IMG/VR virus record: IMGVR_UViG_3300023184_000093
Location: 1-64,000 of that record
Strand: one strand, 5' to 3'
Length of the DNA: 64,000 nt
Source: a virus
Part shown: positions 24,201 through 64,000 of the stretch, piece by piece
Numbering within the stretch: position 1 is the stretch's first letter
Layout of the letters: every line of letters starts with the position of its first letter
Translations under genes and position numbers: made by a program
Notes under the pieces: model-generated
What the model was told of the DNA's origin: nothing
Database searches by the model: none
The model's input: only the letters and a program-made list of their open reading frames with translations

Positions 24201-27200
24201 GTTAATGGCGTTGGTTATGCATCATTAACATTACCTGATTCTAATTTTCAAGAAAAAAACATATTACAAATTGGAAAATCATATTCCCCAAACAATATCT
24301 TCCTGGGCACCTTTTATGGAACTCCGTTATATGGGAATATCAGCAACTTTAGAATCGTTAATGGTACTGTGGTATATCCTGGAAACTTTACTGTACCTAA
24401 TGGACCATTACAATTAACACAGGTTGCCAACGCATATGGTGGAACCAATACCGCTGCCATTTCTAATGCAACCTCTGTTACTTTCTTAACAGCAAAATAT
24501 TATTCTTATGTGGGGCTACTTCTTGGATTTAATGACGCTGGATCAAATAATCTAGTTGTTACACCAACCGGTAATCCAGGACAAGGAACATTCAGTCCAT
24601 TTGGTAACAATTGGAGTATGTTGTTTAATGGTACCACTGATCATTTAAGCATACCTATTGCAAATTCATCTAATTCTGGTACATCATTTGCATTGGCGTT
24701 TAATAATAATAATTGGACTATAGAAACTTGGGCATATCTTACTGCAAATGCAGGTACTGCATATATTGCCGGTCAATATAATACCAGTAATTATTCTCCT
24801 TTGGGATTATATATTACTGGAAATAAACCCGCAGTTGGAGTATCAAATGCAGGTACATTATGGAATATTAACCCCACATCACCTAATGTATTATCAACAG
24901 GTACATGGAATCATATTGCCGCAGTACGTAATGGTGGTAGATATAGTCTTTATGTTAATGGAATAGAGCAAATATTTGCTGTTAGTTCAGTTCCCACAGT
25001 TGACAATAGTGTCAATGCTGGAGTATTAGTTGCAACTAATACAATTAATTCTGCACTAAATCCATTTGATCAAAGTATATATAATAGTTTATATTTTGAT
25101 GGTGGAAGTTATTTAAATTTATCAGCTAATGCAGGATACAACTTTGGTACTGGTGATTTTACCATAGAATGTTGGATATATCCATTAGCATATGTCGTTG
25201 GATCGGCAACTGCTTCGGAAATTATTGACCTTTGGTCAAATGCAAGCGGCAGTTTTATAGTTGGACAATGGCAGATACAAATTAGTGCCGCTGGTTTAAT
25301 TCAATTCCCATACGCTACTGGTGCTGCTGGTGCTGCAACGCTTACATCAATTGCAATCATAACATTAAACGCTTGGTCACATGTTGCTGTAGTTCGTTCA
25401 GGATCGGCTGTAGGCAATCTTAAAATATATTTAAATGGAGCTGTTGTTGCAACTAGTGCCGGAGCAGTGATACAAAATATAGGTAGTACCGGGGCAGGTT
25501 CAATTGGTAAACAAACCAATGTTGCAAGTATTCCTTATTGTTATAATGGTTACATATCAAATGTACGTATAGTTAAAGGACAGGCATTATATACTGCTTC
25601 ATTTGTGCCACCTGCCTCCTCAATAGGTGTTGTACAAGTCGGTGTAGCTGGTGGTGGACTGGCAACTTCTACTTCTACAAATACCACACAACTATTAGTT
25701 GGTAAATTTATCGATCAACGATATTTCTTTGATGATTATAGTTTAAACAATTTTACACTGACAAATAATGGAGGAGTTAGTGCTGCTACTTTATATCCAC
25801 CTATTAACTCAACTAGTACATTTAATAGTATGTACTTTAATGGTACAACACAATATCTAACAATCCCCAATGCTACGGCGATCACACTTAACACTGGTGA
25901 TTTTACTATAGAGGCATGGGTATATACTACAGTATTAAACGGACAAAATGGTATATTTGGTAAAAGAGAATTACTGCAATACTATGGTGTAATATTCCGT
26001 GTTCTTAATAGTACAAATAAACTGGTCATGCAAATTGCATCTGATACAGGTAATACATGGGCAATTGATGCTAATCTTGATTTTGGATTACCTGCATTAA
26101 CAATAAACACATGGTATCATGTGGCATTAGTAAGAAATGGTAGTTCTTTTAGAATATATCAAAATGGTGTAGGTGGAACAATCTATACCTATGCCGGCCT
26201 TATCGCACACAATACTGCACCTGGATATATTGGTAAATCAGACGGATCAGGTGGAGGACAATTTTGGAATGGATATATTTCTAACTTTAGAATTGTAAAA
26301 GGTGTTGCAGTATATACAAATAATTTCACAGTACCCACAGGACCATTAAACAATGCACAAGTTGCTAATCCATACGGAGGATTTAATACACAGGGCATCA
26401 ATAATAACGGCACAAGTATATTAATAGCAAAATCATCTTCCTTGATCAATGAAGGCAATGTTGCTGTAGACTATAGTATTGTTCCTAATTATATGACCAG
26501 TGCAGTCAGGCCTACAGTTAATAATTTCTTTCCACCTATTGGTTCAACTAGTACATATTATAATAGTTTATTTTTTGATGGTACTCAAAGTCTTACTCTG
26601 ACAGCACCACAAACTTCACTTTCGTTTGGTACCACTGGCGAATTTACCATAGAAATGTGGGTATATCCTACAGCTCTTGCACTCGATGGCATCGCAGCAG
26701 GTTTAATAGATGCAAGGGCAGGCCAAAGCGGGTCACCTTGGGCTCTTGATTTAACATTGTCTGGTGGTAATATGTACCTTCATATGACAGTGAACACTGG
26801 TGGTGGCCCTACGGGTGTTACTCCAATACCACTAAACAATTGGACACATATAGTTTTTACAAAACAAAACGGTGCAATAAAATATTATGTCAATGGTGCC
26901 TTAGATATTTCTAGTACTTCTAATGCTAATACATCTCCGTTAGATGCAGGAAGTGCTACTCAAGTAATAGGAAGAAATAACGAAAGTGGACGTTTTTTCA
27001 AAGGTTATATTTCTAACTTAAGAATAGTAAAAGGTCTAGCAGTTTATACAGGGCCATTTACTATACCTACTCGACCATTAACAATTACACAAACCGCCAA
27101 CCCCTACGGTGGTAGTAATGTACAGGCAATATCCACTGGTACCTACACATCGTTATTAACCATATTACCTGTTAACGTTAGTAATATAGTTGATTATAGT

Positions 27201-30200
27201 ACTAACACATCCGTGATAACCATAGGGTCAGGTACAGTTAGTTTAAGTACATTGGATCCATTCATTGCAAGTACTTATAATTTACATAGCGTTTATTTTA
27301 ATGGTAATAGTTCATTGTCTCTTACTTCTTCAAGGCTAGCACTAGGCAGTTTGTTGTTCAACGGTACCAGTCAGACTCTTACCTTTTCGGCACAAACTGC
27401 ACTTTCGTTTGGCACTGGAGATTTAACCATAGAAATGTGGGTTTATCCTACCTCGCTTGCACCTGATGGTATATATGCAGGGTTAATAGATGCAAGATCA
27501 GGATCTGGAAACACGTCGTGGAATGTTGGCTTATTTGTATCTGCAGGTAATATGTATGCTTACATGCAAATAATAGGAGCCACAGGAAATCCATCGGGTA
27601 CTACTATAATTCCATTAAATGCTTGGACACATATAGCCTGGACAAGACAAAGTTCTACATTTAAAATTTTTGTTAATGGTGTTGTTGATTATACTGCTAG
27701 TGAGACTCGTGCAATTGATGCCGGAGGTACTAGTCAAACAATAGGAAGACATAATGAAGCAGGTCGTTATTATCGTGGTTATATTTCTACCTTGAGAATT
27801 GTTAAAGGTACCGCAGTTTATACATCATCCTTTAATCCATTATTACAAGTAATTGGTAATATTGTTAACACATCATTGCTATTATTAGTTACTAGCGATG
27901 CCAATAAAATAATAGATTCAAGCAGCACTCCGGTTACATTAACTAATAATGGTGCTGTTTCTTTTAGTTCCGTGACGGTTCCGCCAGCCCCGCAATATTG
28001 GTTATATAGTGATCACACAGTAGAGTCATGGGTATATTTAAACTCGTCTACAATTACAACTAATAATATAACAAGTAATATGTTAATAGCCGGAACATAT
28101 GATGGTGCGACTACTACCGGCTGGGAATGGACAATCAATCCTTATGTGATGACACTTAATTATAGAAATTCTGGAGTAGTAATATCTTTTGGTACAAGTC
28201 AATTACCTATTCTTAGCCAGGTTATTGCAGACAGAGGTGGAATTGGTCTAAGTCCAACAAACACAGCGGTAACATTAAGTCCTGCAAGTCCTCTTTCTGA
28301 TGGTTATGGAAGTTTATATTTTAACGGTACAAATGCCCAAATAACAAACCCAAAAAATAGTGGATTCGATTATGGATCAGGAAGTTTTACTATTGAATCT
28401 TGGGTATACTATCTTGGCACAGTCGCCTCAACTACTATTATAGGTCATCAGGCTGGCCCAACTCCGGGAAGATCCTGGATGTTTACTATGCTAATTGCCG
28501 GCCACTTATATTTTGATTGGTCCTCAAATGGTAGTTATGGCACGCCCGGGTCTTTTGTTAGTTCTTCAACCGCTCCACTAAATCAATGGAATCATGTGGC
28601 ATTTGTGAGAAATGGTACAATTTACACATTTTATATAAATGGTGTTGCTGCTGGCTCGGGTTCCATGACTGCTGGGATAGCGTTTCCAAATTCAGGGTCA
28701 TTGGCCATTGGTTATACTGCAAATGAAACCACAAGCGGACAATCATTTTTTAAAGGGTATATATCTAACCTACGTGTAGTTAAAGGACTGGCAGTATATA
28801 CTGGTAATTTTACACCCACTGGGCGATTAACTTCTACACAAGTTGCCGGTACAAATATACAAGCAATATTAACTGCAAGTTATACCAGCATTTTATTGGC
28901 GGCAAATCCAGCAGTTTCTTCTCAAACATTTGCACTAAACACATGGCATCATGTAGTATTCACAAGACAAGGCACTACCTCTACAATGTATATTAATGGT
29001 GTTCAAACAACATCAACTGTGATCAGTGGATATACCGATCAATATACTCTCCGCCTTGGATACATAGGATTTACTAGCCCTACATCATCCTACCTAACAG
29101 GATATCTTAGTAACTTTAGAATAGTCAATGGTGTAGCGGTGTATACAGGAACAAACTTTCTTCCACCCACTGGTGTATTAACTTTACAACAACCAGCTAA
29201 CCCGTTTGGTGGAACAAATACTAATGCTATTACAGATACTAATAATATTAGAATTTCAACATTGGCATTTAGTGGTGTTACCATAACACCATATAATACC
29301 AATTCAAATATGTTGATAGGTAGAGCAGGATCTGGTATAACCAGCGTGTTTCCTGGATATCTATCTAATTTTAGAATAGTCAATGGTACCGCAGTGTATA
29401 CTGGTAATTTTACTGCACCTAGAGCACCATTATCATTACTTAAGAATACTAGTTTGTTAATTGCCGCTAGTAGCTGGTATGTAGATAAAAGTCCATATAA
29501 TTTTCAAATCAGCACTGGAACGGTGAGTAGTGTGCCTGCTATAACAAAATTCACACCTTACAAAATACCCGGTGAATATAATAGATCTATAGTTGGTGGT
29601 AGTATATATTTTAATACAACAACAGCAGCTGGACAGAATTTAAGTCTTGGTTCGCCTAGCTCATTGGCATTAGGTAGCGGAAATTATACAGTAGAATGTT
29701 GGATATATATTAATGCATATAATACATTAAACAGTGTTATTATAGATTGGCGTACTAATGCGGGCACCACTGCCGGTGTACCTGTATTATATCTATTAGC
29801 CAATGGAACTATACAATGGCAAAATACTGGCGGCACAGGTCTTTTAACTTCAGCTGTAACTTCACCTATCTCTGATCGTATAATATTGAATACATGGAAT
29901 CATATTGCCATGGTTAGATATAATTCAATGTTGTATATGTATATCAATGGTGTGGTTGTAGCCAATGTAGCAGATTCTACAGCATTAACAATTCAAACAC
30001 TTTTCATTAATAGTCCCATTACAGCCAGCAATCAAACATTGTTTGGTTATGTATCTAATGTTAGAATACTAGCAGGAACAGCTTTGTATGTACCAAGTAT
30101 AGTTGTTCCAACTACAACTTTAACAGTTCTTCCTGACACGGCGTTATTGGCATTAAAAACCAATGCAACTTTAATTAAAGATAATTCACAGAATAATTTT

Positions 30201-33200
30201 TTTATAGCAGACTCAACTAGTACAACAATTCAAAGAGTATTCACACCGTTTGGTGGTAGTGGTAGTGCATTTTTTGGTAATAGAAATACATTCTTAACTA
30301 TTAGTAGTAGTACAAATTCAGCGTTTGCATTGGGCACCAACGATTTTACTTTAGAAGCCTGGGTATATCAAACGGAACGTAATATATATTTTGGATCATT
30401 AATTGTTGGAGCACTTACCTATAATGTATCTCTTCTTTCTTCAGATTGGCATTGGATAATTGATCCTAGTGGATATCTAAATTTTCAGTCAGGGTATCCT
30501 GCAGTTTATAGTGCAACATCAAATGTTAAAGTTCCATTAAATGTGTGGACACATGTTTCGTTTGTAAGAAATTTTGGATCACCTTCTTTCTATATAAATG
30601 GAAAGAGTGCAGGTGGTTCTCTTTCAAATTCTACTAGAAATTCAGCAGCCGGTAGTTTATGGTGGGATAATGACGTTGATCTTTATAAAAATACGTCTGT
30701 ATATATTAGTACCTCAACCGTTTCAATGTATGATAATTATACCTCCGATGAATGGAGTTTCTTACATAACGGCCAGCAAGATTATACAATTGATCTTTGG
30801 GTTTATTCTAGTTCGTTGTGGGGTGGGTATGCATGGGACGACCCTCTCATCAACCCCTCGTCAACTTCTATTATCAATACTGGGCACTTATCAACGCCAA
30901 TAGGCTTATACATTACTGATTTTGGTGCAGTTAATTTAGCAACTAATTTTGCTCCTTATTATATGTTTACCGTACCTCCTGGACAAGCCCCAAATGATTT
31001 AGCCGGTACTTGGGGCACTAAAATAAGTGGATCACTTTGGTATGGAATTTCTAATGCCACTGAATATATTGGTGTTTACGCAGGTGCTGGATCTATTCAA
31101 CCAAATATATGGAATCATATAGCAGTAACATTTAAATCTAGCACCAAAGAAATAAAACTTTTTATAAATGGAAAAAATCAATCTGTAACTGTACATAGAA
31201 TGTTAACCAATGGAGCGACCGCTAGTGGAAGTTTTTCATATCCTACTGGTCCTTCGAAGTATACTTTAGGAGTAGGCGGCGCACCCTTCTCTGGATATAT
31301 GACAAATATACGTATAACTAAATCCATTGTATACACCACTGACTATACTATAGTAATACCTACACCTAATATTACTAATGCCATAACATTATTATTAGTT
31401 AATAGTAATGCCAATAAATTTTTAGATTCTAGTGATGGTAATAGGCCACTGCGTTTTGATACTACTGCCAACCCTATTATCTACAGCCCTACATTTAGTA
31501 ACAATGTACCATCTATTGTAGTTAATGCGGTAGGATCTACTTTAAGTTTGAATTTTAATGGCAGTTCATATCTAACAGTTCCTTCTAATCCAATATTTGC
31601 ATTTGGTACTGGAGATTTCACTGTTGAATGTTGGTGGTATCAAAGCGTGGCCAATACAGATCGAGGGTTTTTAAGCAGCATAGCAGCTACAACTGGCACA
31701 CCTGCCGTCGGTATACAATTAGCAGGCAACGGTGCATTTACTGGTTTGAATACAGGTGGATCATTTGACACATTCTCATGGACACTACCACTAAGTCAAT
31801 GGAATCATGTAGCCTTTGTTAGAATTAATGGAATAGCATATGCTTATGTAAATGGTGTGCTCGCATCATCTGGTCCTACTACCCTAGGTAATAATTTAGT
31901 TGGTTCTGGATTTGTTATAGGATGCTCATATACTAATAATTTTAGTTTTCTAGCAGTTGGTTATATTTCTAATGTGCGAGTAGTTAAAGGTCTAGGAGTA
32001 TATAACAATAACTTTATTAAACCAACTTCAACATTAACTAATATCACAAATACTGTATTATTATTAAATGTGAACTCATCCGGTAATTATCTAAAAGATG
32101 ATAGCACTACTAATTTTTCTCCTATTACAATTACAGGAAATGTAACTTATAATGCCAGCACACCGTTTAGTTCTGGTGGCAGTTTAGCTTTTGATCAGGG
32201 TGGAGCAGCATCACGCTTGACTTTACCTAGTTCCACAGCATTTAATTTAACTGGTAATTTTACATTAGAAGCATGGATATACCCTACATATTTACTATCA
32301 GGTGGCAATGGAATATTTGATGCCAGAGTTACTGGTGCATCTGCTCTACCGTGGGCTTGGTATGTTGACGGTCCTACTAAGGCACTAGCGTTTTTCAATG
32401 GAACATATTATATAGGTACTACTCCTATTACTACAAGTACCTGGACACATATTGCTGCCACAAGATCAGGTAGTAATTTTAGAATGTATGTTAATGGTAT
32501 TTTAGATTATACCGCTAGCATAACTGGTGCAATAAGCCCTGGATCTACAAGTGCAGTAGTTGGTATAAAAGATGATAATCTTATCAACTACAAACCAATT
32601 AATTATATTACTAATTTAAGAATAGTTAATGGTACAGCACTATATACTGGTACTTTTACGGTACCTACTCTCGAATTACAAACTACTCAGCAAGGAACAG
32701 GCACTTATATAAGTGCAATTTTTACCGCAAGTTATGTTTCGTTATTAACAGCACAACACTATGCTATAGCAGATATCAGCGTATTTAATAATTCTATAAC
32801 TAATAATAATGCAGTTAGTGTTTCTAACACAGTGAAACCAGCTCTTACTTTTGATCTAGCAAATGCTAATTTTATTAATACACAAAATATTAATATTGGA
32901 GGGCATGAAAATACTACAGCAACCGCGTTTAGAGGTTACATGAGTAATTTACATGTTGTAAAAGGTCAGGCCAAATATGGTAATGCTTTTAAAACACCTA
33001 CTACTGATTTTACCACACTTACTAATAGTGTATTATTAACAATGTTAAGTACAGATACTAGGTTTGTAGATTACTCAGCCAATGCATTTACTATAACTAA
33101 TACTTCTACATCATTACAAGGATTCTCACCATTTGATGTAAATTATAGTACATATTTTAATGGTACTAGTTATATAAGTATTGGTGACTCATTACCTCTT

Positions 33201-36200
33201 AATCTTTCATCTAGTACAAATTGGACCATAGAAACTTGGGTAAATCCATTAGGAAATTATAGTGTTAACAATAGTATATTATTTGCAAAACGTAATGCTA
33301 GTGCTGGAGCACCTCTTTACAATAGTTTGTATTTTAATGGAACTTCAAATCTAACAGTTACTTCATCAAATTCACCAGGATTTGTTGGTGCTGGTGAAGA
33401 CACTATTGAATGTTGGGTTAATTTTTCATCTTTTACACTTGGCTCTCGCCACGTAATTTTCCAAATTTATAACGGTAATTCAACTTATAACGGAACAAGT
33501 CTAACTTATAGACCCACAGATGGTAATACTGGTACGTTTATTGCTAGTATAGGGAATTCATCAGGGATTAATTCACAGGAGATCTATAGTAATACTGTTA
33601 TTGTAGTTACAAATAAATGGTACCATGTAGCTCTCCAAGCAAATAATCAAGGAGTCTACGCGACCCAAATTGTTCATTCATTGTATCTTAATGGAACTCC
33701 TATTATACTTTATGATTCTTTTGTATCCATCCAGCCCCCCAGTGATTTTTACAATCCGGATAGATCAGCAGATATAGTGCTATCTATAGGAGCAGCATTA
33801 TCAACATATGCAGGGACTGTCAACCTAATAGGTTACATATCAAACTTTAGAATAGTTAACGGTATAGCATTATATAACAGTTTAGTTGATAGGTTAAATG
33901 ACAGTGTTTACCCAATTAAAACAGTAAACAATGTCCCAGAAACTGGACATTTGACATATACAGGTAAGGTTAATATCCCCCTACTACCATTTGGTACCAC
34001 ACAACTTGCTAATCCTTCCGGGGGCATTAATACCCGGGCATTATCAACTTCAAGCTATACTACATTATTAGTAGGTAGATTCACAGGAGGTCTTGATTCT
34101 ATTGTTGACTATAGTGATTATAATTTATCTATAGTTAATAATTCTGTTGTGGTTTCTACACTTGCTAATAATCAAGTTGGAAGTTTATATTTTAATGGCA
34201 GTTCATATTTAACAGCACCAGTTGGAGCAAGTACATTTGGTACAGGTGATTTTACGGTTGAATGTTGGTTCTATAAAACAGCGGCCCTGAATAGCACATT
34301 ATTAAGCAATGTGCCAAGTGGTGTTGATATTAATTATTGGGCATTATCTACCTATGCTGATGGACATTGTCAATTTACAATAAGAGATGCTAGTCAAATA
34401 TTTGTTACTGGTAGTATAATCACTGCAATTAACACATGGGTTCATCTAGCGGTAACAAGAACATCTGGACTTGTTAAATTGTTTGTTAATGGTGTATTAG
34501 ATAATTCAGGGACTATTACTAAAACCGTTACTGCTAGAATAACTGTTATTGGGGCTTTCTTATATACTGGATATTTGTCGTATTTCCAAGGTTATATGTC
34601 TAATGTTAGAATAGTAACCGGTGCCGCAGTGTATACCACTGCATTTATTAAACCATATGCACCATTGAGCAATACACAAACTTCTAATACAAGTGGTCTT
34701 CCAAGTATAGCAATTCCATCTTTAAATTATAGTGCATCATTTGATGGAAGCACACAATATTTGTATGTTCCAACTACTACTGATATGGTGCTTGGTACTG
34801 GAGATTTTACTATAGAACTATGGGTATATTTGAATGCTGCACCGGCGTCTGGCAAAGTGTTTCTAATGTTAGATTTTAGACCTGCTCTTACACCTAGTAC
34901 AGCGGCCGGATATATTAACTTCTACGTTAGCCCAAGTTTACAAATTGGGGCAAATCTTGCTGCATTTTCTTATGGAGGTGGAACTGCATTGGCTCTTAGT
35001 ACCTGGTATCATGTAGCTTTGGTCAGACGAAATAGTAATTCAAATATATATATTAATGGATCGGCTATTGGAGGAGGAATTACTGATACAAATAATTATC
35101 TCGGTGCAACAAATAGACCAGTAATTGGCACAGATAGTAATTCTGTGTTAGCAGCTGGATATTCTTTAAATGGTTACATCTCTAACCTAAGAATAGTAAA
35201 AGGCATTAGTGCATACGCAGGTAACTTTACCAAGCCAACTAGTTCACTAACTCTTAGCCAGGTTCCATCGGGTAATATACTTAGAATTCCTGCAAGTTTG
35301 AATACATTAACTTATAAAATTTTCTCAATCACTGGAAACACTGGAAACAATGCAACAAATGGATATATAAAACTAGGGAATGGTAACATATACTTTAATT
35401 TATATGATATTTGGTCAGCAGAATGTTGGTTCTATTCCCCCACTGGTTCATCATTTGGTCAAATTATGGGAACACGGAGCAGCTTGAATGCTGGATATGC
35501 TGCTTTTCTCTTTGCAGAAGTTAATAATGTATTACAATTTTATTCTTCTTCTAACGCCTCTAGTTGGGATTTGTTTAATACGCCAGTTAATACTGTTGCA
35601 ACCATAACACCAAATACATGGCATCACATAGCGGTTAGTAGAACTACTACTACAATGTATGTTTATTATGATGGAACAGTATCACTTACACGTGACCTTA
35701 CAGGAATTGGATTTTCTGGATCTCAACATAACATTTATATGGGTGCAGGCGATTATTTAAACCAGGGCAGCGATAGTTGGACAGGATATATTGCTGATTT
35801 TAGATTTGTTACTGGTGAAACTCCGTATACTGGTACAAATTTTACTCCTCCTAGTATACCATTAGAAGCTACACAAGAAAAGTCTGGTCAAATTGGACCA
35901 ATTGTATTTACAACCTCAACACGTTTTTTAGTTGGCGGAACACTTCCAACTCCAGGCTACTCGCTTGGTCTAGGAGCACTAACTATTGCTGATCGTAGTT
36001 ATTATCAGAATCCTGAAGTAACACGATGGCCATCCTTTTTTCCAGGTTCTGTTGGTACCTCAGTAGCTGGTATATTAGGTGGAACTACTCCTGGATTCCC
36101 TACACTTACTCCAAATTATACTACTTTATTAACATTGCAATCACCAATTGTTGCAAATACTTCTAATAATAATGTTAGCATTGTTAATATAGGTACTGTT

Positions 36201-38048
36201 CTTACTACAACTAAAAATCCTTTTGGTGCAGCAGCAACTAGTTTGTTAACAGCAAATTTTGTTGATGAAAATATATCCATTGTTGATTCATCAGGAAATT
36301 CATTTGCTATTACTAATGTTGGTGGAGTTACTACTTCTACTGCATTAAATCCATTTGCAGCAGCATATGGATCGGCAACTGCATCTTATGAAGGATATTT
36401 AAATAGCGGTACAGGCTTTTTAGGATTCTTTGACGGAACAACTTACTCAACATCTACAACGGCATTAACTAGTGGTATATGGAGTCACGTTGCTTATACA
36501 TATGATGGTACCGCTATTCCACCTAGTGTTAATATCTACGTAAATGGCGTCCGTGTTCATCAAACTTCTACACTTTCAATTCAAGATAATCAGGAAACTT
36601 TATACATTGGTGGTGCTTCAGGTGTTATTGAACATTTTTATGGAAATATGAGTAATTTTAGAATAATTAAAGATTATTCATTATATCTTGGATCTTATTT
36701 TGGCGACATTCCTAAATCAATTTTAACCACAAATATTAATACTATTCCTTATCCAAATACATCTACTATTGCTAGCAGTGTATCATTATTAACATTACAA
36801 AGAGGTTCAATTAATGATAATTCAACCTATCAAAATACTGTGTCATTTGGTGGAACACCAACCACTGTATTAATCTCTCCATTTGGAAGTTCTACAATTA
36901 TAAGTACATATTTTAATAGTGGAACAAATTATTTGACTATATCTGCACAAAACGCTTTAAGTTTAGGTGTTGGTGATTTCACTGTAGAGGTATGGGTATA
37001 TCCAACAGCACCACAGAGTACACTAGCTGGATATTATTCGTCAATTCTTGATGCAAGAGCAAGTGTAGGAGGTATACCATGGATAGTTTCATTAATAACT
37101 ATTGCTGGTGGTGCTCTTAAAGCAATCTTTTATGATGGAACCCAACGTACAGCATCAACTACTGTGCCATTAGGAACTTGGACACATATAGCATGGACAA
37201 GAACAAATTCTATATTAAGAATATTTGTTAACGGTGTAGTAGATTATGTATTAACTAATCACACAATTAATCTATCTGCTGGTACAACTCAATATATAGG
37301 AAGACTGTATGATGGTAATCCTCATTGGTATCAAGGTTATATATCTAATTTAAGAGTAGTTAAAGGTACTTCATTATATACAGGAAACTTTGTTCCATCA
37401 CAAATACCTTTAACTTCAGTAGCAGGTACTTCAACTAATTTATTAACAAACTTTGTTGATACCAGAGCCTTTGATTATTCAGGTAATACAGTAATTAAAG
37501 CAAATACAAGTTCGGTGACTTTAGTAAATTCAGTGGCTAAAAATAATTTATATAGTATTGGATTTAATGGAAGTACTGATTTTATAACTGTTTCTAGCAG
37601 TACAGGATTTATTTACAACGCCAATGATTTTACTTGGGAACTGTGGGTATATCCTACAAGTCCAATTTGGGCTACCACCTCAACATACTTTATAGAACAT
37701 GGTATTAATGGTGGAAGTTTAAGATATGCCAACAATAAAGTTTTCTACTATAACATAAGTACGGCTACTTCTACCGCTAGTACCGTATTAAGTATTAGTT
37801 CATCTACATGGACACATATAGCAGTGGCTAGATCTAGTGGTCTTACATCCTTATTTGTCAATGGATCCTTTGTAGTTAACACTCCTGATTATTATAGTTA
37901 CAATACAGCAACAATTGTAACTATTGGAAATACCAGCACTGCTTCAAGAAACTATTTCCAAGGATATATAGAAGATTTACGTATTACTAAAGGTGTGGCA
38001 CGTTATTCATCAACTTTTGTACCACCTATAAAATTATCTAATAGATAA
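21216..38048 (+). CDS. Giant LamG-repeat adhesin (5610 aa)
   Basis: 5610 aa (16.8 kb), uninterrupted. The N-terminus carries DLGVIKRQR, shared with the 1770-aa protein, then one glycine-rich domain (about 48-305). The rest is a chain of about 26 complete or partial LamG (Laminin_G_3-like) modules. Complete ones run from YFNGTxxL, DFTIExWVYP and TWTHIAxxRxxxxxxxxxNG to GYISNxRIVKGxAxYTGNF. Several modules lack one half: first halves only near residues about 620-690 and 2280-2345; last halves only near about 2570-2720 and 3900-3930. It ends like its neighbour (GYIEDLRITKGVARY). No signal peptide, protease or membrane segment. Probably a glycan-binding tail adhesin, among the larger phage proteins I know of. 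The precise virion location is unknown. Confidence 0.75.
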   Translation: MPYDLGVIKRQRREPPVISTSTYGGNFVGFYSTGIGDNINYYAVHVFTSSGQFTKPSYVTTTTAQVLVVAGGGGGGLAGGISTSPGGGGGAGGVINSSTYSITATLTILIGAGGPAAGGDVDPAIGTGSASTVTNGVTILVASGGGRGGYNYSTGIDPQASGGAGGSGGGGSYAGFGLGGASTSTQGNIGGTGNAGYTGSPLYAGGGGGAGAVGGSANASASGQGGSGTITLITGSPIWLAGGGGGGANATGYNNGSYGGGGPGGTTSAVAGVAGTTNSGGGGGGGGGTTGAGGSGGSGIVIISYAIPANLYPINQSDPYFGNNSLLLNSLALLPAASLNKISSIISDLSLNQYAVTNNGSLTGKLNPFAPGPYHSLYFNGNNFISIATINAMPATTTDFTVEFWMYTVSSDNITNHWLIGTIVTNGFYVFHRNNYINIGQVGVITYTSPAVFSLNQWTHVAIVRASNIFYIYQNGTSVFTQSWNPTLVAGGVYIGGASSQNAFHTGYLSNVRVVSSVVYTGNFAIPTEPLSTVQNASSNNISVITAGTTLLTGRFATTSTSIVDYSTLTNSMVNFGVTPSSLNPFNNLNSYSVSFNNSSLSATKTNGWVSGNYTVEAWVYLNTVTNASNSMLIAGTYGYGNIIPYMFGWELTINNYLITLNFQSDTTGYNPIKIKTLATTAINTGGQLLTDISLYNAPLNISSNLSQSLESWIFPTNPFNNRYGSFANMAMYNSLYNFNYGPVSRPRMDTIPSFDGATRTFTLEAWIFMDPNLPVFNLAGPIIQGVDWAFGIGNNGTACKLQFVYRRWNSSSATRDFYPYLEGPNNKSMTSTASVPIGQWVHVAFVKNVNPIYPSFYINGVQEISNTGFYYTGGDYMNPDNTYAQVGGVGLLSYVTTGNIGTTGYLDMNAKLFAFISNVRLVQGVAVYTGNFTVPTDNLTITQSSGTNISAIVSNTATTLLTAVTTASITQQVFSTSTWYHVAFTKSSNIVSLYVNGVGYASLTLPDSNFQEKNILQIGKSYSPNNIFLGTFYGTPLYGNISNFRIVNGTVVYPGNFTVPNGPLQLTQVANAYGGTNTAAISNATSVTFLTAKYYSYVGLLLGFNDAGSNNLVVTPTGNPGQGTFSPFGNNWSMLFNGTTDHLSIPIANSSNSGTSFALAFNNNNWTIETWAYLTANAGTAYIAGQYNTSNYSPLGLYITGNKPAVGVSNAGTLWNINPTSPNVLSTGTWNHIAAVRNGGRYSLYVNGIEQIFAVSSVPTVDNSVNAGVLVATNTINSALNPFDQSIYNSLYFDGGSYLNLSANAGYNFGTGDFTIECWIYPLAYVVGSATASEIIDLWSNASGSFIVGQWQIQISAAGLIQFPYATGAAGAATLTSIAIITLNAWSHVAVVRSGSAVGNLKIYLNGAVVATSAGAVIQNIGSTGAGSIGKQTNVASIPYCYNGYISNVRIVKGQALYTASFVPPASSIGVVQVGVAGGGLATSTSTNTTQLLVGKFIDQRYFFDDYSLNNFTLTNNGGVSAATLYPPINSTSTFNSMYFNGTTQYLTIPNATAITLNTGDFTIEAWVYTTVLNGQNGIFGKRELLQYYGVIFRVLNSTNKLVMQIASDTGNTWAIDANLDFGLPALTINTWYHVALVRNGSSFRIYQNGVGGTIYTYAGLIAHNTAPGYIGKSDGSGGGQFWNGYISNFRIVKGVAVYTNNFTVPTGPLNNAQVANPYGGFNTQGINNNGTSILIAKSSSLINEGNVAVDYSIVPNYMTSAVRPTVNNFFPPIGSTSTYYNSLFFDGTQSLTLTAPQTSLSFGTTGEFTIEMWVYPTALALDGIAAGLIDARAGQSGSPWALDLTLSGGNMYLHMTVNTGGGPTGVTPIPLNNWTHIVFTKQNGAIKYYVNGALDISSTSNANTSPLDAGSATQVIGRNNESGRFFKGYISNLRIVKGLAVYTGPFTIPTRPLTITQTANPYGGSNVQAISTGTYTSLLTILPVNVSNIVDYSTNTSVITIGSGTVSLSTLDPFIASTYNLHSVYFNGNSSLSLTSSRLALGSLLFNGTSQTLTFSAQTALSFGTGDLTIEMWVYPTSLAPDGIYAGLIDARSGSGNTSWNVGLFVSAGNMYAYMQIIGATGNPSGTTIIPLNAWTHIAWTRQSSTFKIFVNGVVDYTASETRAIDAGGTSQTIGRHNEAGRYYRGYISTLRIVKGTAVYTSSFNPLLQVIGNIVNTSLLLLVTSDANKIIDSSSTPVTLTNNGAVSFSSVTVPPAPQYWLYSDHTVESWVYLNSSTITTNNITSNMLIAGTYDGATTTGWEWTINPYVMTLNYRNSGVVISFGTSQLPILSQVIADRGGIGLSPTNTAVTLSPASPLSDGYGSLYFNGTNAQITNPKNSGFDYGSGSFTIESWVYYLGTVASTTIIGHQAGPTPGRSWMFTMLIAGHLYFDWSSNGSYGTPGSFVSSSTAPLNQWNHVAFVRNGTIYTFYINGVAAGSGSMTAGIAFPNSGSLAIGYTANETTSGQSFFKGYISNLRVVKGLAVYTGNFTPTGRLTSTQVAGTNIQAILTASYTSILLAANPAVSSQTFALNTWHHVVFTRQGTTSTMYINGVQTTSTVISGYTDQYTLRLGYIGFTSPTSSYLTGYLSNFRIVNGVAVYTGTNFLPPTGVLTLQQPANPFGGTNTNAITDTNNIRISTLAFSGVTITPYNTNSNMLIGRAGSGITSVFPGYLSNFRIVNGTAVYTGNFTAPRAPLSLLKNTSLLIAASSWYVDKSPYNFQISTGTVSSVPAITKFTPYKIPGEYNRSIVGGSIYFNTTTAAGQNLSLGSPSSLALGSGNYTVECWIYINAYNTLNSVIIDWRTNAGTTAGVPVLYLLANGTIQWQNTGGTGLLTSAVTSPISDRIILNTWNHIAMVRYNSMLYMYINGVVVANVADSTALTIQTLFINSPITASNQTLFGYVSNVRILAGTALYVPSIVVPTTTLTVLPDTALLALKTNATLIKDNSQNNFFIADSTSTTIQRVFTPFGGSGSAFFGNRNTFLTISSSTNSAFALGTNDFTLEAWVYQTERNIYFGSLIVGALTYNVSLLSSDWHWIIDPSGYLNFQSGYPAVYSATSNVKVPLNVWTHVSFVRNFGSPSFYINGKSAGGSLSNSTRNSAAGSLWWDNDVDLYKNTSVYISTSTVSMYDNYTSDEWSFLHNGQQDYTIDLWVYSSSLWGGYAWDDPLINPSSTSIINTGHLSTPIGLYITDFGAVNLATNFAPYYMFTVPPGQAPNDLAGTWGTKISGSLWYGISNATEYIGVYAGAGSIQPNIWNHIAVTFKSSTKEIKLFINGKNQSVTVHRMLTNGATASGSFSYPTGPSKYTLGVGGAPFSGYMTNIRITKSIVYTTDYTIVIPTPNITNAITLLLVNSNANKFLDSSDGNRPLRFDTTANPIIYSPTFSNNVPSIVVNAVGSTLSLNFNGSSYLTVPSNPIFAFGTGDFTVECWWYQSVANTDRGFLSSIAATTGTPAVGIQLAGNGAFTGLNTGGSFDTFSWTLPLSQWNHVAFVRINGIAYAYVNGVLASSGPTTLGNNLVGSGFVIGCSYTNNFSFLAVGYISNVRVVKGLGVYNNNFIKPTSTLTNITNTVLLLNVNSSGNYLKDDSTTNFSPITITGNVTYNASTPFSSGGSLAFDQGGAASRLTLPSSTAFNLTGNFTLEAWIYPTYLLSGGNGIFDARVTGASALPWAWYVDGPTKALAFFNGTYYIGTTPITTSTWTHIAATRSGSNFRMYVNGILDYTASITGAISPGSTSAVVGIKDDNLINYKPINYITNLRIVNGTALYTGTFTVPTLELQTTQQGTGTYISAIFTASYVSLLTAQHYAIADISVFNNSITNNNAVSVSNTVKPALTFDLANANFINTQNINIGGHENTTATAFRGYMSNLHVVKGQAKYGNAFKTPTTDFTTLTNSVLLTMLSTDTRFVDYSANAFTITNTSTSLQGFSPFDVNYSTYFNGTSYISIGDSLPLNLSSSTNWTIETWVNPLGNYSVNNSILFAKRNASAGAPLYNSLYFNGTSNLTVTSSNSPGFVGAGEDTIECWVNFSSFTLGSRHVIFQIYNGNSTYNGTSLTYRPTDGNTGTFIASIGNSSGINSQEIYSNTVIVVTNKWYHVALQANNQGVYATQIVHSLYLNGTPIILYDSFVSIQPPSDFYNPDRSADIVLSIGAALSTYAGTVNLIGYISNFRIVNGIALYNSLVDRLNDSVYPIKTVNNVPETGHLTYTGKVNIPLLPFGTTQLANPSGGINTRALSTSSYTTLLVGRFTGGLDSIVDYSDYNLSIVNNSVVVSTLANNQVGSLYFNGSSYLTAPVGASTFGTGDFTVECWFYKTAALNSTLLSNVPSGVDINYWALSTYADGHCQFTIRDASQIFVTGSIITAINTWVHLAVTRTSGLVKLFVNGVLDNSGTITKTVTARITVIGAFLYTGYLSYFQGYMSNVRIVTGAAVYTTAFIKPYAPLSNTQTSNTSGLPSIAIPSLNYSASFDGSTQYLYVPTTTDMVLGTGDFTIELWVYLNAAPASGKVFLMLDFRPALTPSTAAGYINFYVSPSLQIGANLAAFSYGGGTALALSTWYHVALVRRNSNSNIYINGSAIGGGITDTNNYLGATNRPVIGTDSNSVLAAGYSLNGYISNLRIVKGISAYAGNFTKPTSSLTLSQVPSGNILRIPASLNTLTYKIFSITGNTGNNATNGYIKLGNGNIYFNLYDIWSAECWFYSPTGSSFGQIMGTRSSLNAGYAAFLFAEVNNVLQFYSSSNASSWDLFNTPVNTVATITPNTWHHIAVSRTTTTMYVYYDGTVSLTRDLTGIGFSGSQHNIYMGAGDYLNQGSDSWTGYIADFRFVTGETPYTGTNFTPPSIPLEATQEKSGQIGPIVFTTSTRFLVGGTLPTPGYSLGLGALTIADRSYYQNPEVTRWPSFFPGSVGTSVAGILGGTTPGFPTLTPNYTTLLTLQSPIVANTSNNNVSIVNIGTVLTTTKNPFGAAATSLLTANFVDENISIVDSSGNSFAITNVGGVTTSTALNPFAAAYGSATASYEGYLNSGTGFLGFFDGTTYSTSTTALTSGIWSHVAYTYDGTAIPPSVNIYVNGVRVHQTSTLSIQDNQETLYIGGASGVIEHFYGNMSNFRIIKDYSLYLGSYFGDIPKSILTTNINTIPYPNTSTIASSVSLLTLQRGSINDNSTYQNTVSFGGTPTTVLISPFGSSTIISTYFNSGTNYLTISAQNALSLGVGDFTVEVWVYPTAPQSTLAGYYSSILDARASVGGIPWIVSLITIAGGALKAIFYDGTQRTASTTVPLGTWTHIAWTRTNSILRIFVNGVVDYVLTNHTINLSAGTTQYIGRLYDGNPHWYQGYISNLRVVKGTSLYTGNFVPSQIPLTSVAGTSTNLLTNFVDTRAFDYSGNTVIKANTSSVTLVNSVAKNNLYSIGFNGSTDFITVSSSTGFIYNANDFTWELWVYPTSPIWATTSTYFIEHGINGGSLRYANNKVFYYNISTATSTASTVLSISSSTWTHIAVARSSGLTSLFVNGSFVVNTPDYYSYNTATIVTIGNTSTASRNYFQGYIEDLRITKGVARYSSTFVPPIKLSNR
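22330..38040 (+). repeat. Array of divergent LamG-coding modules
   Basis: About 26 modules of roughly 500-650 bp identified by the recurring strands F[TS][IV]E[ACSM]W and GY[IL]SN[FLV]R[IV]V. Sequence identity between modules is low to moderate overall, but short DNA blocks at the end motif are very similar (e.g. taagaatagtaaaaggt). Confidence 0.75.
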
Positions 38049-47943: not shown

Positions 47944-48765
47944 ATGAAAAAACTACTAACTATTGCCTTGCTATTTGTAGCAGGATTAGCTCAAGCCTGG
48001 GACCAACGTGCCCCATTACAACCAGGTGCATGTCAAGTACATAGCCCATATGGATTTGCTGCCACACAAAGAGCAGCACAACCAATTTGCCGCGAAGCTT
48101 ACCTAGTCGCATATGATGCTCCTGTTAAGATTCCTGTATATGTAGCATATACATTATTGCCACAAAATGCACTAGGATGCTGGCCACGCACAAATGCGTT
48201 TGTATCAGATCAAAGTGTACAGGGAGGTGCTCGACCGGATGATTATGCTGGTACAGGCTACGACAAAGGTCATATGAGTCCTGATGGCGACTTATCTTGG
48301 TCACAACAGGTTGAATATGAAAGTTTTTTAATGACTAATATGGTACCTCAGAGAGGATCACTTAACAGAGGTATATGGAAACTACTTGAAACCAGCGTTC
48401 GTGGATGGGCAGTTCAATTGAATCAACCATTTACTATCTATGTTGGCGGAATTTACAACAACGGAGATAAACGTATTGGCAACGGTGTTATTGTTCCTCA
48501 TGCTTATTATAAAATTGTTATTAATAATCAAACTAGACAAGTAGCAGGATGGTTGTTCCCGCATGTTGAACCTTACCCAAACTTAGGTAATGACCTAACT
48601 GTTTTCCGTAAACCAATTGCTGATATTATGCAAGAAGCAGGAGTCAAATATGCTTTCCCCGCAGGAGCAATCGAACTACAACCAGGACAAGAATGGCCTA
48701 TGAATTTTGGACAACTTACAGCGGCTAAGAAACAAAAATGTGGAGCAAATGCTTCAGCTGATTAA
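47944..48765 (+). CDS. Secreted DNA/RNA non-specific endonuclease (NucA/EndA type)
   Basis: 273 aa. Residues 1-18 form a Sec signal peptide (KK, hydrophobic core LLTIALLFVAGL, AQA cleavage site). The beta-beta-alpha-metal nuclease core is clear: YDKGHMSPDGDLSW with catalytic His110, then TNMVPQRGSLNRGIWKLLE with Asn132, Asn141 and Glu149 matching the DRGH...N...N..W..LE pattern of the family. It should degrade DNA and RNA in the periplasm or outside the cell, using a divalent metal. In a phage this could destroy DNA of superinfecting phages or salvage host nucleotides. Five cysteines in the mature part may allow disulfides. Start chosen at the ATG giving the complete signal peptide. Confidence 0.88.
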   Translation: MKKLLTIALLFVAGLAQAWDQRAPLQPGACQVHSPYGFAATQRAAQPICREAYLVAYDAPVKIPVYVAYTLLPQNALGCWPRTNAFVSDQSVQGGARPDDYAGTGYDKGHMSPDGDLSWSQQVEYESFLMTNMVPQRGSLNRGIWKLLETSVRGWAVQLNQPFTIYVGGIYNNGDKRIGNGVIVPHAYYKIVINNQTRQVAGWLFPHVEPYPNLGNDLTVFRKPIADIMQEAGVKYAFPAGAIELQPGQEWPMNFGQLTAAKKQKCGANASAD

Positions 48766-49406
48766 GTCTTAGTTTTACAATTATTTCCGTGCCAGCGAGT
48801 ATAGTTATTAACACTTATAGTTTTAGAACAATACTCACACACTTTTTTTAACTGCGAAGTATGCCTGCCCTCATCTAATTGTTTTCTCATTATAGATCCC
48901 CCAATTAGATTATGTGTTCCGGCATCTATTCTTGCTTGGTTAGACGCGGGTCCTAAAAAATTATGTGTTTTATTTTCTAATCTTTTTAAGTTAGATTCAC
49001 GTTGAATTTTTCCACCTTGAAAATTATGTGTACCATTAGCTATTTTTTTGTTATTAACTATAGAAGCAGCCTCAACTCCTTTACGTTGAACATTAGGATC
49101 TAAAAAAGGATGTGTTCCGTCTGCTAACTTTTTATAAGCAACTTTCCTTGCTATCTCTGATAATTCTTCTGAAGATAGTTTCATACGAACAGCTATAGCA
49201 TAACAAGCACCATAATCGCCCTGAGAACAATGAACATCGTAGTGTTCTTGTATAGTAATACCTGTTAAGTTAGCAGGATCGTGATTACTATGATTGCCGT
49301 CTATATGATGGATTTCATAACTTCGTCCTTCACTATCTTTAGGGATAGGACCGTTATGTTCTTGATAGATCTTTCTGTACCTAGCAGTACCACAATAAAT
49401 ACACAT
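48762..49406 (-). CDS. HNH homing endonuclease
   Basis: 214 aa, antisense; its stop overlaps the nuclease stop by 4 bp. The start has CxxC (CIYC, residues 2-5) and the HNH core YEIHHIDGNHSNHDPANL (30-47) with HH33-34, Asn47 and later H55/H59. A second zinc pair CEYC lies near the C-terminus. Between them, four to five short repeats of the form [AN]xGTHNFxGG resemble NUMOD3-type DNA-binding motifs of homing endonucleases. RBS AAGGAG is 8 nt before the ATG. Free-standing, no intron is apparent. Its promoter/leader is shared with the GIY-YIG gene at 63345, indicating mobile-element-like regulation. Confidence 0.85.
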   Translation of the reverse strand: MCIYCGTARYRKIYQEHNGPIPKDSEGRSYEIHHIDGNHSNHDPANLTGITIQEHYDVHCSQGDYGACYAIAVRMKLSSEELSEIARKVAYKKLADGTHPFLDPNVQRKGVEAASIVNNKKIANGTHNFQGGKIQRESNLKRLENKTHNFLGPASNQARIDAGTHNLIGGSIMRKQLDEGRHTSQLKKVCEYCSKTISVNNYTRWHGNNCKTKT

Positions 49407-49426
49407 TGCTGATGCTCCTTCAAAGC

Positions 49427-49474
49427 GTTAGAGTAGTTGGATATTTCCAGTATCGCGAACTACAACTTTATTTA
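49427..49474 (-). repeat. Homing-endonuclease leader repeat, copy 1
   Basis: 48-bp segment matching 63907-63954 at 44 of 48 positions. Read on the minus strand it holds a late-promoter-like AACTAAATA (49469-49477) and then a hairpin (GTAGTT...AACTAC, 49433-49463, with inner GGA/TCC). The four differences fall outside both stems. Confidence 0.8.
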
Positions 49475-62276: not shown

Positions 62277-63373
62277 GCAAAGAACAATACAACTTGTTGA
62301 AACCAACAAACTATCTCAAACGTAAAATGTTTTTGGATCCTGCAGGTCCAGTTACAGTACAGCGTTTTGAAGAAGTCAAATATCAAAAATTACAAAAGTA
62401 CGAAGAGCTCGCCCGCGGATTCTTTTGGGTTCCAGAAGAAATTAGTCTTACTAAAGATAAGATGGATCACAAAGATGCCAGTGATGCTGTTAAACATATC
62501 TTCACTAGTAATCTATTAAGACAAACTGCATTGGATAGTATTCAAGGTCGAGCACCATTCCAAATCTTTGGACCAGTATCTAGTTTGCCCGAACTCGAAG
62601 CACTTGCATTGACATGGAGTTTTTTCGAAACCAGCATACACAGCAAATCATATAGTCACATTATTAGAAACATCTATAGTGTGCCCAAGGATGAATTCAA
62701 CAAGATCCACGACACTAAGGAAATTGTTGAAATGGCTGCTAACATAGGACGCCATTATGAAAATCTACACTTACTTAATTGCCGTAAAGAAATGGGTGAA
62801 GAAATTGATCTCCACACTCACAAGCGGGCAATTTGGTTGGCATTACATGCAAGCTATGCACTCGAGGCATTCCGCTTCATGGTATCATTCGCAACATCGT
62901 TGGCTATGGTCGAAAACAAAATCTACATCGGTAACGGAAACATCATTAGTCTCATCCTCCAAGACGAACTCCTCCATGCAGAATGGACCGCTTGGTTGAT
63001 CAACAATGTAGTCAAAGATGACTCAGACTTCGTTGTACTTGAAGAAGAATGTCGTGAAGAAGTATACGCAATGTATATGGAAGTTATTGCTGAAGAAAAG
63101 GCCTGGGCAGATTACTTGTTTAAGAAAGGACCAGTCATTGGTCTCAATGCTACTATTCTAAAAGACTTTGTAGACTATACAGCATTTATACGTTTAAAAG
63201 ACATTGGTATCAAGTATGCCGAAGAGCATCCACGTAGCAGTCCTATTCCATGGTTTAACAAACATGTTAACATTGGTAAGAAGCAAAGTGCATTACAGGA
63301 AACTGAAAGCACTAATTATGTTGTGGGAGTTATGAGTTCAGAAGTTAATCATTATGATCTTCCTGATTTGTAA
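62273..63373 (+). CDS. nrdB: Ribonucleotide reductase, small (radical) subunit
   Basis: 366 aa from [14 protein letters not shown] at 62273, chosen because this ATG overlaps the preceding stop and matches the expected length; an in-frame ATG at 62201 lies inside the 47-aa ORF. Metal ligands: Asp in [10 protein letters not shown], Glu and His in [10 protein letters not shown] with the radical Tyr at its end, Glu in ALEAFRF, and Glu/His in DELLHAEW. Between the Glu and His of the second motif there is one residue more than in the ETIHSRSY pattern of E. coli and T4. It generates the tyrosyl radical for NrdA. Its 3' end overlaps the antisense GIY-YIG gene by 29 bp. Confidence 0.95.
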
Positions 63374-63884
63374 TTACACTCCATCCTTTAACAGACTTTT
63401 GTCTATGAGCACCTTTAAATAATGAATGAACATTAATTTTACACAAATTGTATTTTGTGTAAAGTTCATTCTTAGTACAGTATTCAATAGTACCGCTTAC
63501 ATGACGAAACTTATGTAAACTATGATCGTACTGTCCATTGTTTTTGCCTTTTGTTTTGCTAGTGCGCCCCTTCATTTTTACTCGTTGTAATTCTTTCTGT
63601 CTTTCAGTTCTTATAAGTCCAGCACTACCCTCACCGCCGTCTGTTAAATTGCGCAATGTACCTGTTCCGTTATCTTTACGACCGTACCAACGAATCATTC
63701 GTCTTTCAAGTGCAAGCGCACCGAGATCTGTTAAGTTATGTTCAAGTATAATTATCTGAGATTTGTTTTTAGGAACAGAAATTACTTTTTGCTTTGAATA
63801 TGCTCGAAGCCCGTTGCCCTTACCAATGTAGTAAGGTGTGCCATCTAATCTTAGATAGGCGTAAACATAAAAGTGTAAATACAT
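63345..63884 (-). CDS. GIY-YIG homing endonuclease (Seg-like)
   Basis: 179 aa, antisense. GIY-YIG domain at the start: [10 protein letters not shown] (6-15) and YYIGKGNG (18-25), Arg27, catalytic Glu60 (ALERRM), [14 protein letters not shown] with Asn79, and TDGGEGSAG. The remaining part is basic with short modular repeats typical of DNA-binding tails ([15 protein letters not shown]). Free-standing, no intron visible. It overlaps the last 29 bp of nrdB in opposite orientation, so it sits at the nrdB/downstream junction. It shares its promoter/leader with the HNH gene at 48762. RBS AAGGA. Confidence 0.85.
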
Positions 63885-63906
63885 TGCTGATAGTTCCTTA
63901 TAAACT

Positions 63907-63954
63907 GTTAGGGTAGTTGGATATGTCCAGTATCGCGAACTACACTTTTATTTA
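63907..63954 (-). repeat. Homing-endonuclease leader repeat, copy 2
   Basis: Matches 49427-49474 at 44 of 48 positions. Read on the minus strand, ACATAAATA (63949-63957) precedes the hairpin GTAGTT...AACTAC (63913-63943). The expected late start point (about 63943) coincides with the 5' base of the stem. Confidence 0.8.
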
Positions 63955-63956
63955 TG

Positions 63957-63985
63957 TTGACTTTATCATTATCGACATATATACT
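63957..63985 (+). promoter_or_regulatory. Sigma70-type promoter for a gene beyond the window
   Basis: TTGACT (63957-63962), 17-bp spacer, TATACT (63980-63985), pointing to the right edge. It lies back-to-back with the minus-strand late promoter of the GIY-YIG gene. Confidence 0.5.
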
Positions 63986-64000
63986 AATACTATAAAGATA

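Follow-up and report, generated by a model that had tools for sequence, protein, structure and literature searches.

Few selfish genes of large phages are as common as free-standing homing endonuclease genes (HEGs), and how these are controlled is known from just a few T4 examples. Here we ask why, in one viral DNA, two HEGs from unrelated protein families are preceded by almost the same leader. The DNA analysed (the window) comprises the first 64,000 nucleotides of a 72,999-bp IMG/VR virus record, that of a T4-like phage. From the sequence of the window alone, the initial annotation had proposed a portable expression cassette, in which a late promoter starts the endonuclease mRNA at the base of a hairpin and the ribosome-binding site lies outside that hairpin.

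Two unrelated endonuclease genes share one leader

Direct reading of the two blocks (63907-63954 and 49427-49474, both on the minus strand) confirmed identity at 44 of 48 positions. As annotated, all four differences fall outside paired positions: the spacer after TAAATA holds two, and the hairpin loop and the linker behind the hairpin one each. Both blocks hold a T4-type late -10 element (TAAATA) and a hairpin at the predicted start, the predicted sense starts (49463 and 63943) lie at the hairpin base, and GCAATG and an ORF follow. A 17-mer of the block occurs exactly twice in the window and also exactly twice in the entire virus record, and two matches were seen in 0 of 100 shuffles. The ribosome-binding site, however, is not outside the structure; there are two hairpins, P1 and P2, and the Shine-Dalgarno (SD) sequence sits in the second. 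The genes and their cassettes are as follows.

63345..63884, minus strand: GIY-YIG ORF, 179 aa (phrog_15526, E 1e-22), overlapping the 3' end of nrdB on the opposite strand
63895..63899, minus strand: SD sequence AAGGA of the GIY-YIG gene, inside P2 by sequence
63876..63954, no single strand: cassette of the GIY-YIG gene, reading TAAATA ... TATTTA on the minus strand and likewise on the plus strand (covariance model R3, 71.4 bits; borders from 3,899 pairwise alignments)
48762..49406, minus strand: HNH ORF, 214 aa (PF13392, E=6e-10), a full-length homologue of I-TevIII
49415..49419, minus strand: SD sequence AGGAG of the HNH gene, inside P2 by sequence
49396..49474, no single strand: cassette of the HNH gene (covariance model R3, 86.7 bits, E 2.8e-16)

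The HNH protein is 37% identical to I-TevIII of phage Bp7 over 95% of its length. The GIY-YIG ORF itself is below Pfam GIY-YIG detection; its YAY and YYIGKG motifs are invariant in A4, and it has relatives in T4-like cyanophages.

The cassette has sharp borders and is widespread in viral contigs

Three features extend the initial annotation: a second hairpin over the SD sequence, the strand of the conserved structure, and a conserved TATTTA that closes the block shortly after the ORF begins. Across the 3,899 pairwise leader-spanning alignments, homology typically starts at TAAATA (-10/-11) and stops 9-12 nt into the ORF at TATTTA. The cassette is ~79 bp long and runs from TAAATA to TATTTA, an inverted late -10 element, within the first codons. 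An HNH locus (L085) and a GIY-YIG locus (L089) match over 354 bp at 91% up to TATTTA, and the ORFs are unrelated beyond; the same leader has been joined to different nucleases.

Searches of this and related genomes, suggested as a check of the annotation, found the cassette to be far more widespread than its two window copies. An exact IMG/VR scan with the 17-mer returned 54 contigs, 53 of which carry the whole module; the other (L051) is a chance match with the module absent, as is a minus-strand regex match in L048. Looser scans of uncultivated viral contigs gave at least 325 distinct elements with the two-hairpin cassette, a lower bound that includes one regex false positive. Whole-record covariance model searches detected up to 13 copies per genome, in records of 333 and 361 kb. 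A pattern search of GTDB genomes gave no cassette match, and a DNA similarity search of INPHARED and named phages gave only chance matches. The covariance search found a divergent cassette before a GIY-YIG gene of Pseudoalteromonas phage vB_Psh_XG4, the sole isolate found with one; this phage encodes Gp23 and the late sigma family, and its copy keeps both hairpins and misses a clear TATTTA. No significant cassette match was obtained for T4, Bp7, S-PM2, S-SRM01, B23, S-N03, Sf-CH5, Xanthomonas X1, or Stenotrophomonas Marzo.

The cassette is specific to homing endonuclease genes

Motifs in the downstream ORFs identified GIY-YIG in 193 and HNH in 73 of the 325 elements listed. The remainder are mostly GIY-YIG-like, NUMOD3-only, or zinc-finger ORFs, truncated genes, and contig ends. 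A block standing before many unrelated non-mobile genes had been named beforehand as the observation that would speak against a portable cassette. The cassette was not seen before ordinary genes; in the three large records checked, every one of the 29 cassettes lies before an HEG, whole or truncated. Coarse blastp clustering of the downstream ORFs was dropped, as it merged families via common parts.

Several individual loci are worth recording. The ORFs of L341 and L384 look Vsr/PD-(D/E)XK-like by eye, without a Pfam match, and in L360/L421 P2 is decayed and the ORF falls outside the recognised classes. Under cassettes L218, L220, L305, L337, L438, L440, and L447 lie short ORFs that carry NUMOD3-type repeats but lack a recognisable nuclease domain; these would be either decayed HEGs or DNA-binding regulators. 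An apparently intact cassette is kept on truncated or frameshifted HEGs at L018, L089, L306, G049:90219, and G056:116959. Cassettes or remnants with no HEG-like ORF immediately downstream were seen at L135 (79-157) and L374 (164-242), the latter near a contig end. Finally, a C-terminal Cys-x-x-Cys...RWHxxxC tail is common to cassette HNH and GIY-YIG proteins (48762-49406; L010, L012, L015, L016, L046, and L050), so that leader and tail are common to both and the nuclease domains between them appear shuffled.

Two covarying hairpins lie on the antisense strand

Alignments of 31 and 53 sequences each contain two strongly covarying hairpins. In the 53-sequence alignment, 95.4% of cells are paired and 139 cells carry double changes, versus 30 after shuffling; covariation is very strong. 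Read in the sense orientation, P1 has an invariant C-R-C opposite Y and P2 contains the SD sequence. The antisense-strand model has 97.1% of cells paired (100% in P1), with double changes in 13 of 19 pairs and 83 double-change cells versus 20.3 when shuffled. The G-C closing pairs are invariant as well, and the base of P2 has a G.U that is fixed. The hairpins of the GIY-YIG cassette are described on the antisense strand.

63913..63943, plus strand: P1, consisting of 6 bp, a bulged G, 1 bp, a second bulged G, and 4-5 bp, with a variable apical loop
63887..63911, plus strand: P2, 8-9 bp, with a loop complementary to the SD sequence

The imperfect pairs distinguish the strands, the element collection having scored G.U and A.C alike. 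In 65 distinct P1 lower stems (stems counted, not independent evolutionary events), imperfect pairs on the sense strand are 22 A.C/C.A, 0 G.U, and 1 G.A, which on the antisense strand become 22 G.U versus 0 A.C. Likewise 67 distinct P2 stems, again counted as stems and not as independent events, have 22 A.C versus 2 G.U in the sense reading and hence 22 G.U versus 2 A.C in the antisense one. The pair between the P1 bulges is, in the sense orientation, G-C in 209, A.C in 71, A-U in 44, and G.U in none of the elements listed. Sense A.C pairs correspond to G.U on the opposite strand, and the structured RNA is thus antisense to the endonuclease; by these pairing statistics, the selected structure lies on the antisense strand. 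Sign-test figures for the counts presuppose an independence that related sequences lack. That strand folds lower in 145 of 150 elements, and there the constant UCUAA and CAGC make the base of P2. A portable late-promoter cassette common to unrelated homing endonucleases stands, whereas the first proposal, that its structured element is a hairpin of the endonuclease mRNA, is not supported.

Among 13 copies in one genome, we counted 12 distinct upper stem/loops on a nearly constant lower stem, as expected if these were copy-specific recognition loops. Rfam searches were negative for the GIY-YIG copy (63800-64000) at E<=1 and for five loci at E<=0.1, and nothing in the whole window reached gathering score.

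A predicted second late-type promoter faces the first

On the other strand TATTTA reads [A/G]TAAATA, which places a conserved, frame-independent inverted late -10 element with N5-G spacing near the start of the target gene. The predicted promoters and RNAs are listed below.

63949..63954, minus strand: sense late-type -10 TAAATA of the GIY-YIG cassette, predicted +1 G at 63943
49469..49474, minus strand: sense late-type -10 TAAATA of the HNH cassette, predicted +1 G at 49463
63876..63881, plus strand: antisense late-type -10 (GTAAATA from 63875) in the first codons of the GIY-YIG ORF, predicted +1 G at 63886
49396..49401, plus strand: antisense late-type -10 (ATAAATA from 49395) inside the HNH ORF, predicted +1 G at 49408
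63886..63954, plus strand: predicted antisense RNA of the GIY-YIG cassette, with G, P2 (63887-63911), a 1-nt linker, P1 (63913-63943), and a U-rich tail (fold -16.9 kcal/mol; covariation)
49408..49474, plus strand: predicted antisense RNA of the HNH cassette, with G, P2 (49409-49431), a 1-nt linker, P1 (49433-49463), and a U-rich tail (fold -17.1 kcal/mol; covariation)

First, the motif is of the right kind. T4 late promoters lack a -35 element and have an 8-bp TATA box roughly one helical turn before the start (PMC2988020). The cassette motif [A/C/G]TAAATA-N5-G fits this layout, with a TATAAATA-like TATA box about one turn upstream of +1 and no -35. The N5-G spacing is modal on both strands and, on the sense side, is found in 256 of the 325 elements listed. 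ATAAATA, CTAAATA, or GTAAATA also precedes many window ORFs (2927, 13631, 15451, 38058, 38927, 47914, 51353, 52231, 54561, 57632, and 59778 on the plus strand), and is therefore this virus's late promoter motif. The T4 late sigma family (gp55-type, phrog_234) is encoded in 17 of 23 cassette-bearing records and not in the 73-kb fragment of the window virus.

Second, conservation of TATTTA is independent of the reading frame. Relative to the start codon it can fall in any of the three frames, yet it keeps a near-fixed distance from CAGC, and both motifs are conserved even where ATG precedes CAGC. In the Met-Tyr-Leu frame it is spelled TAT-TTA in 39 of 40 genes, although these codons make up 0.68 of Tyr and 0.43 of Leu codons elsewhere. 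Judged from this codon usage, conservation of TATTTA overrides codon choice.

Third, the antisense strand between P1 and the sense -10 element is U-rich and almost G-free compared with 320 ordinary late promoters of the same contigs (p about 1e-16), and the antisense RNA likely ends in this tail. A standard terminator scan did not flag the tail, and P1 has a stem rich in A-U pairs and interrupted by conserved bulges, which is unusual for a terminator. In both window copies P2 covers the SD sequence, and the predicted antisense RNA is complementary to the translation start.

A model for antisense control, and its alternatives

We consider it probable that the ~79-bp element is a portable HEG control cassette, in which convergent T4-type late promoters produce the HEG mRNA and an antisense RNA of ~60 nt, the latter masking the ribosome site. 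From TAAATA on the sense strand, transcription of the HEG would begin at the first G of P1. The second TAAATA, hidden in the first codons and read on the opposite strand, would start the antisense RNA at the G of GCUG. This RNA is predicted to fold into P2, whose loop is complementary to the SD sequence, and, after a one-base gap, P1 with its two bulged G's, and probably ends in the U-rich, G-free tail. Most likely it would pair with the 5' UTR and SD sequence of the HEG mRNA and keep ribosomes from binding, both in cis and in trans, which would damp HEG output as gene copies and late transcription rise. From this arrangement we infer that both promoters fire, where the RNA has its 3' end, and that HEG translation is repressed at late times.

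Two alternatives, both improbable and to a similar degree, keep an antisense RNA. Once an HEG has inserted in inverted orientation, the antisense-strand -10 and hairpins could serve as a late promoter and 5' UTR from which the adjacent phage genes continue to be transcribed. Retention of the HEG would thereby be favoured; embedded promoters are known in T4 HEGs (PMC2988022). The upstream neighbour is indeed co-directional with the antisense RNA at both window copies and in 179 of 264 of the elements listed, but the other 85 of these 264 have no such neighbour, conservation ends at UAUUUA, and the U-rich, G-free tail suggests termination. Alternatively, the RNA could act in trans beyond its own gene, as a small RNA or ribonucleoprotein that binds a phage or host protein, or the endonuclease, via the two bulged G's. 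The invariant bulges and G-C closing pairs and the fixed G.U at the P2 base exceed simple complementarity; against this, the upper part of P1 varies between copies in one genome, and no clear functional copy away from an HEG was found. Within the antisense model, too, the bulged motif (C-R-C in sense, G-Y-G in antisense) suggests something beyond plain antisense pairing, such as a protein partner.

Slightly less probable again is the sense leader of the initial annotation, a late promoter with 5'-UTR hairpins that stabilise the 5' end of the HEG mRNA or present or time its ribosome-binding site. In its favour, nearly all elements have a TAAATA that puts +1 at the base of the hairpin, and aligned elements have the SD sequence within P2; it does not account for imperfect sense pairs that are A.C and not G.U, for the weaker sense fold, or for CAGC and TATTTA that stay conserved with ATG upstream of both. 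A recombination or binding site in the DNA of the HEG border, incidentally transcribed, is very unlikely: the sharp borders and the ORF swap ending at TATTTA (L085 versus L089) would suit it, but the G.U/A.C strand asymmetry has no reason in duplex DNA and the spacing on both sides is promoter-like.

Comparison with known systems

The closest layout is that of IS10, in which RNA-OUT (pIN-pOUT), a 69-nt antisense RNA complementary to the translation start, blocks ribosome binding to the transposase mRNA (PMC5006887). In both, two promoters face each other where the nuclease gene of a mobile element begins, and a short antisense RNA spans its translation start; the likeness is one of layout, with no sequence relation claimed, and repression by the cassette is our proposal. 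Unlike IS10, the cassette has T4-type late promoters and two tandem hairpins with bulged G's, and one cassette is common to unrelated endonuclease families.

CfrI of cyanophage S-PM2, a ~225-nt antisense RNA that links psbA to the HEG F-CphI at one locus, likewise overlaps an HEG in a T4-like phage (PMC2984593, PMC12197685); S-PM2 (NC_006820) has no match to the R2/R3 cassette models. I-TevI, I-TevII, I-TevIII, SegB, and MobE are controlled by a late promoter and an RBS-sequestering hairpin in longer sense transcripts (PMC2988022). They share with the cassette a late promoter beside the HEG and RNA structure around the ribosome-binding site; an antisense RNA is not described for them, and T4 and Bp7 lack the cassette. 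A read-through lockout of the I-TevI type, by UAAAUA:UAUUUA pairing, was not supported (mean pairing probability 0.09, no excess over permuted pairs). Among open-licence full texts, we found no paper describing a shared antisense cassette of HEGs.

More broadly, it is about an even chance that these elements form a widespread new RNA family, a convergent-late-promoter antisense cassette that several HEG superfamilies, unrelated to one another, have taken up across T4-like and jumbo phages. The family would have copy-specific recognition loops and would act as a copy-number control shared by selfish nucleases; the bulged G's may bind a dedicated protein partner. If so, unrelated nucleases reuse one regulatory module, the cassette suggests how a dozen HEG copies coexist in one jumbo genome, and a late-phase antisense regulator becomes directly testable in a T4 background. 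The covariance model would then both find cassette HEGs and mark their start.

Other features of the window

Directly past the GIY-YIG cassette, a sigma70-like promoter (TTGACT-17-TATACT; 63957-63985, plus strand) faces a small ORF and the glutaredoxin gene after nrdB. A single ORF of 5,610 aa (21216-38048, plus strand) lies in a tail-fibre-rich region.
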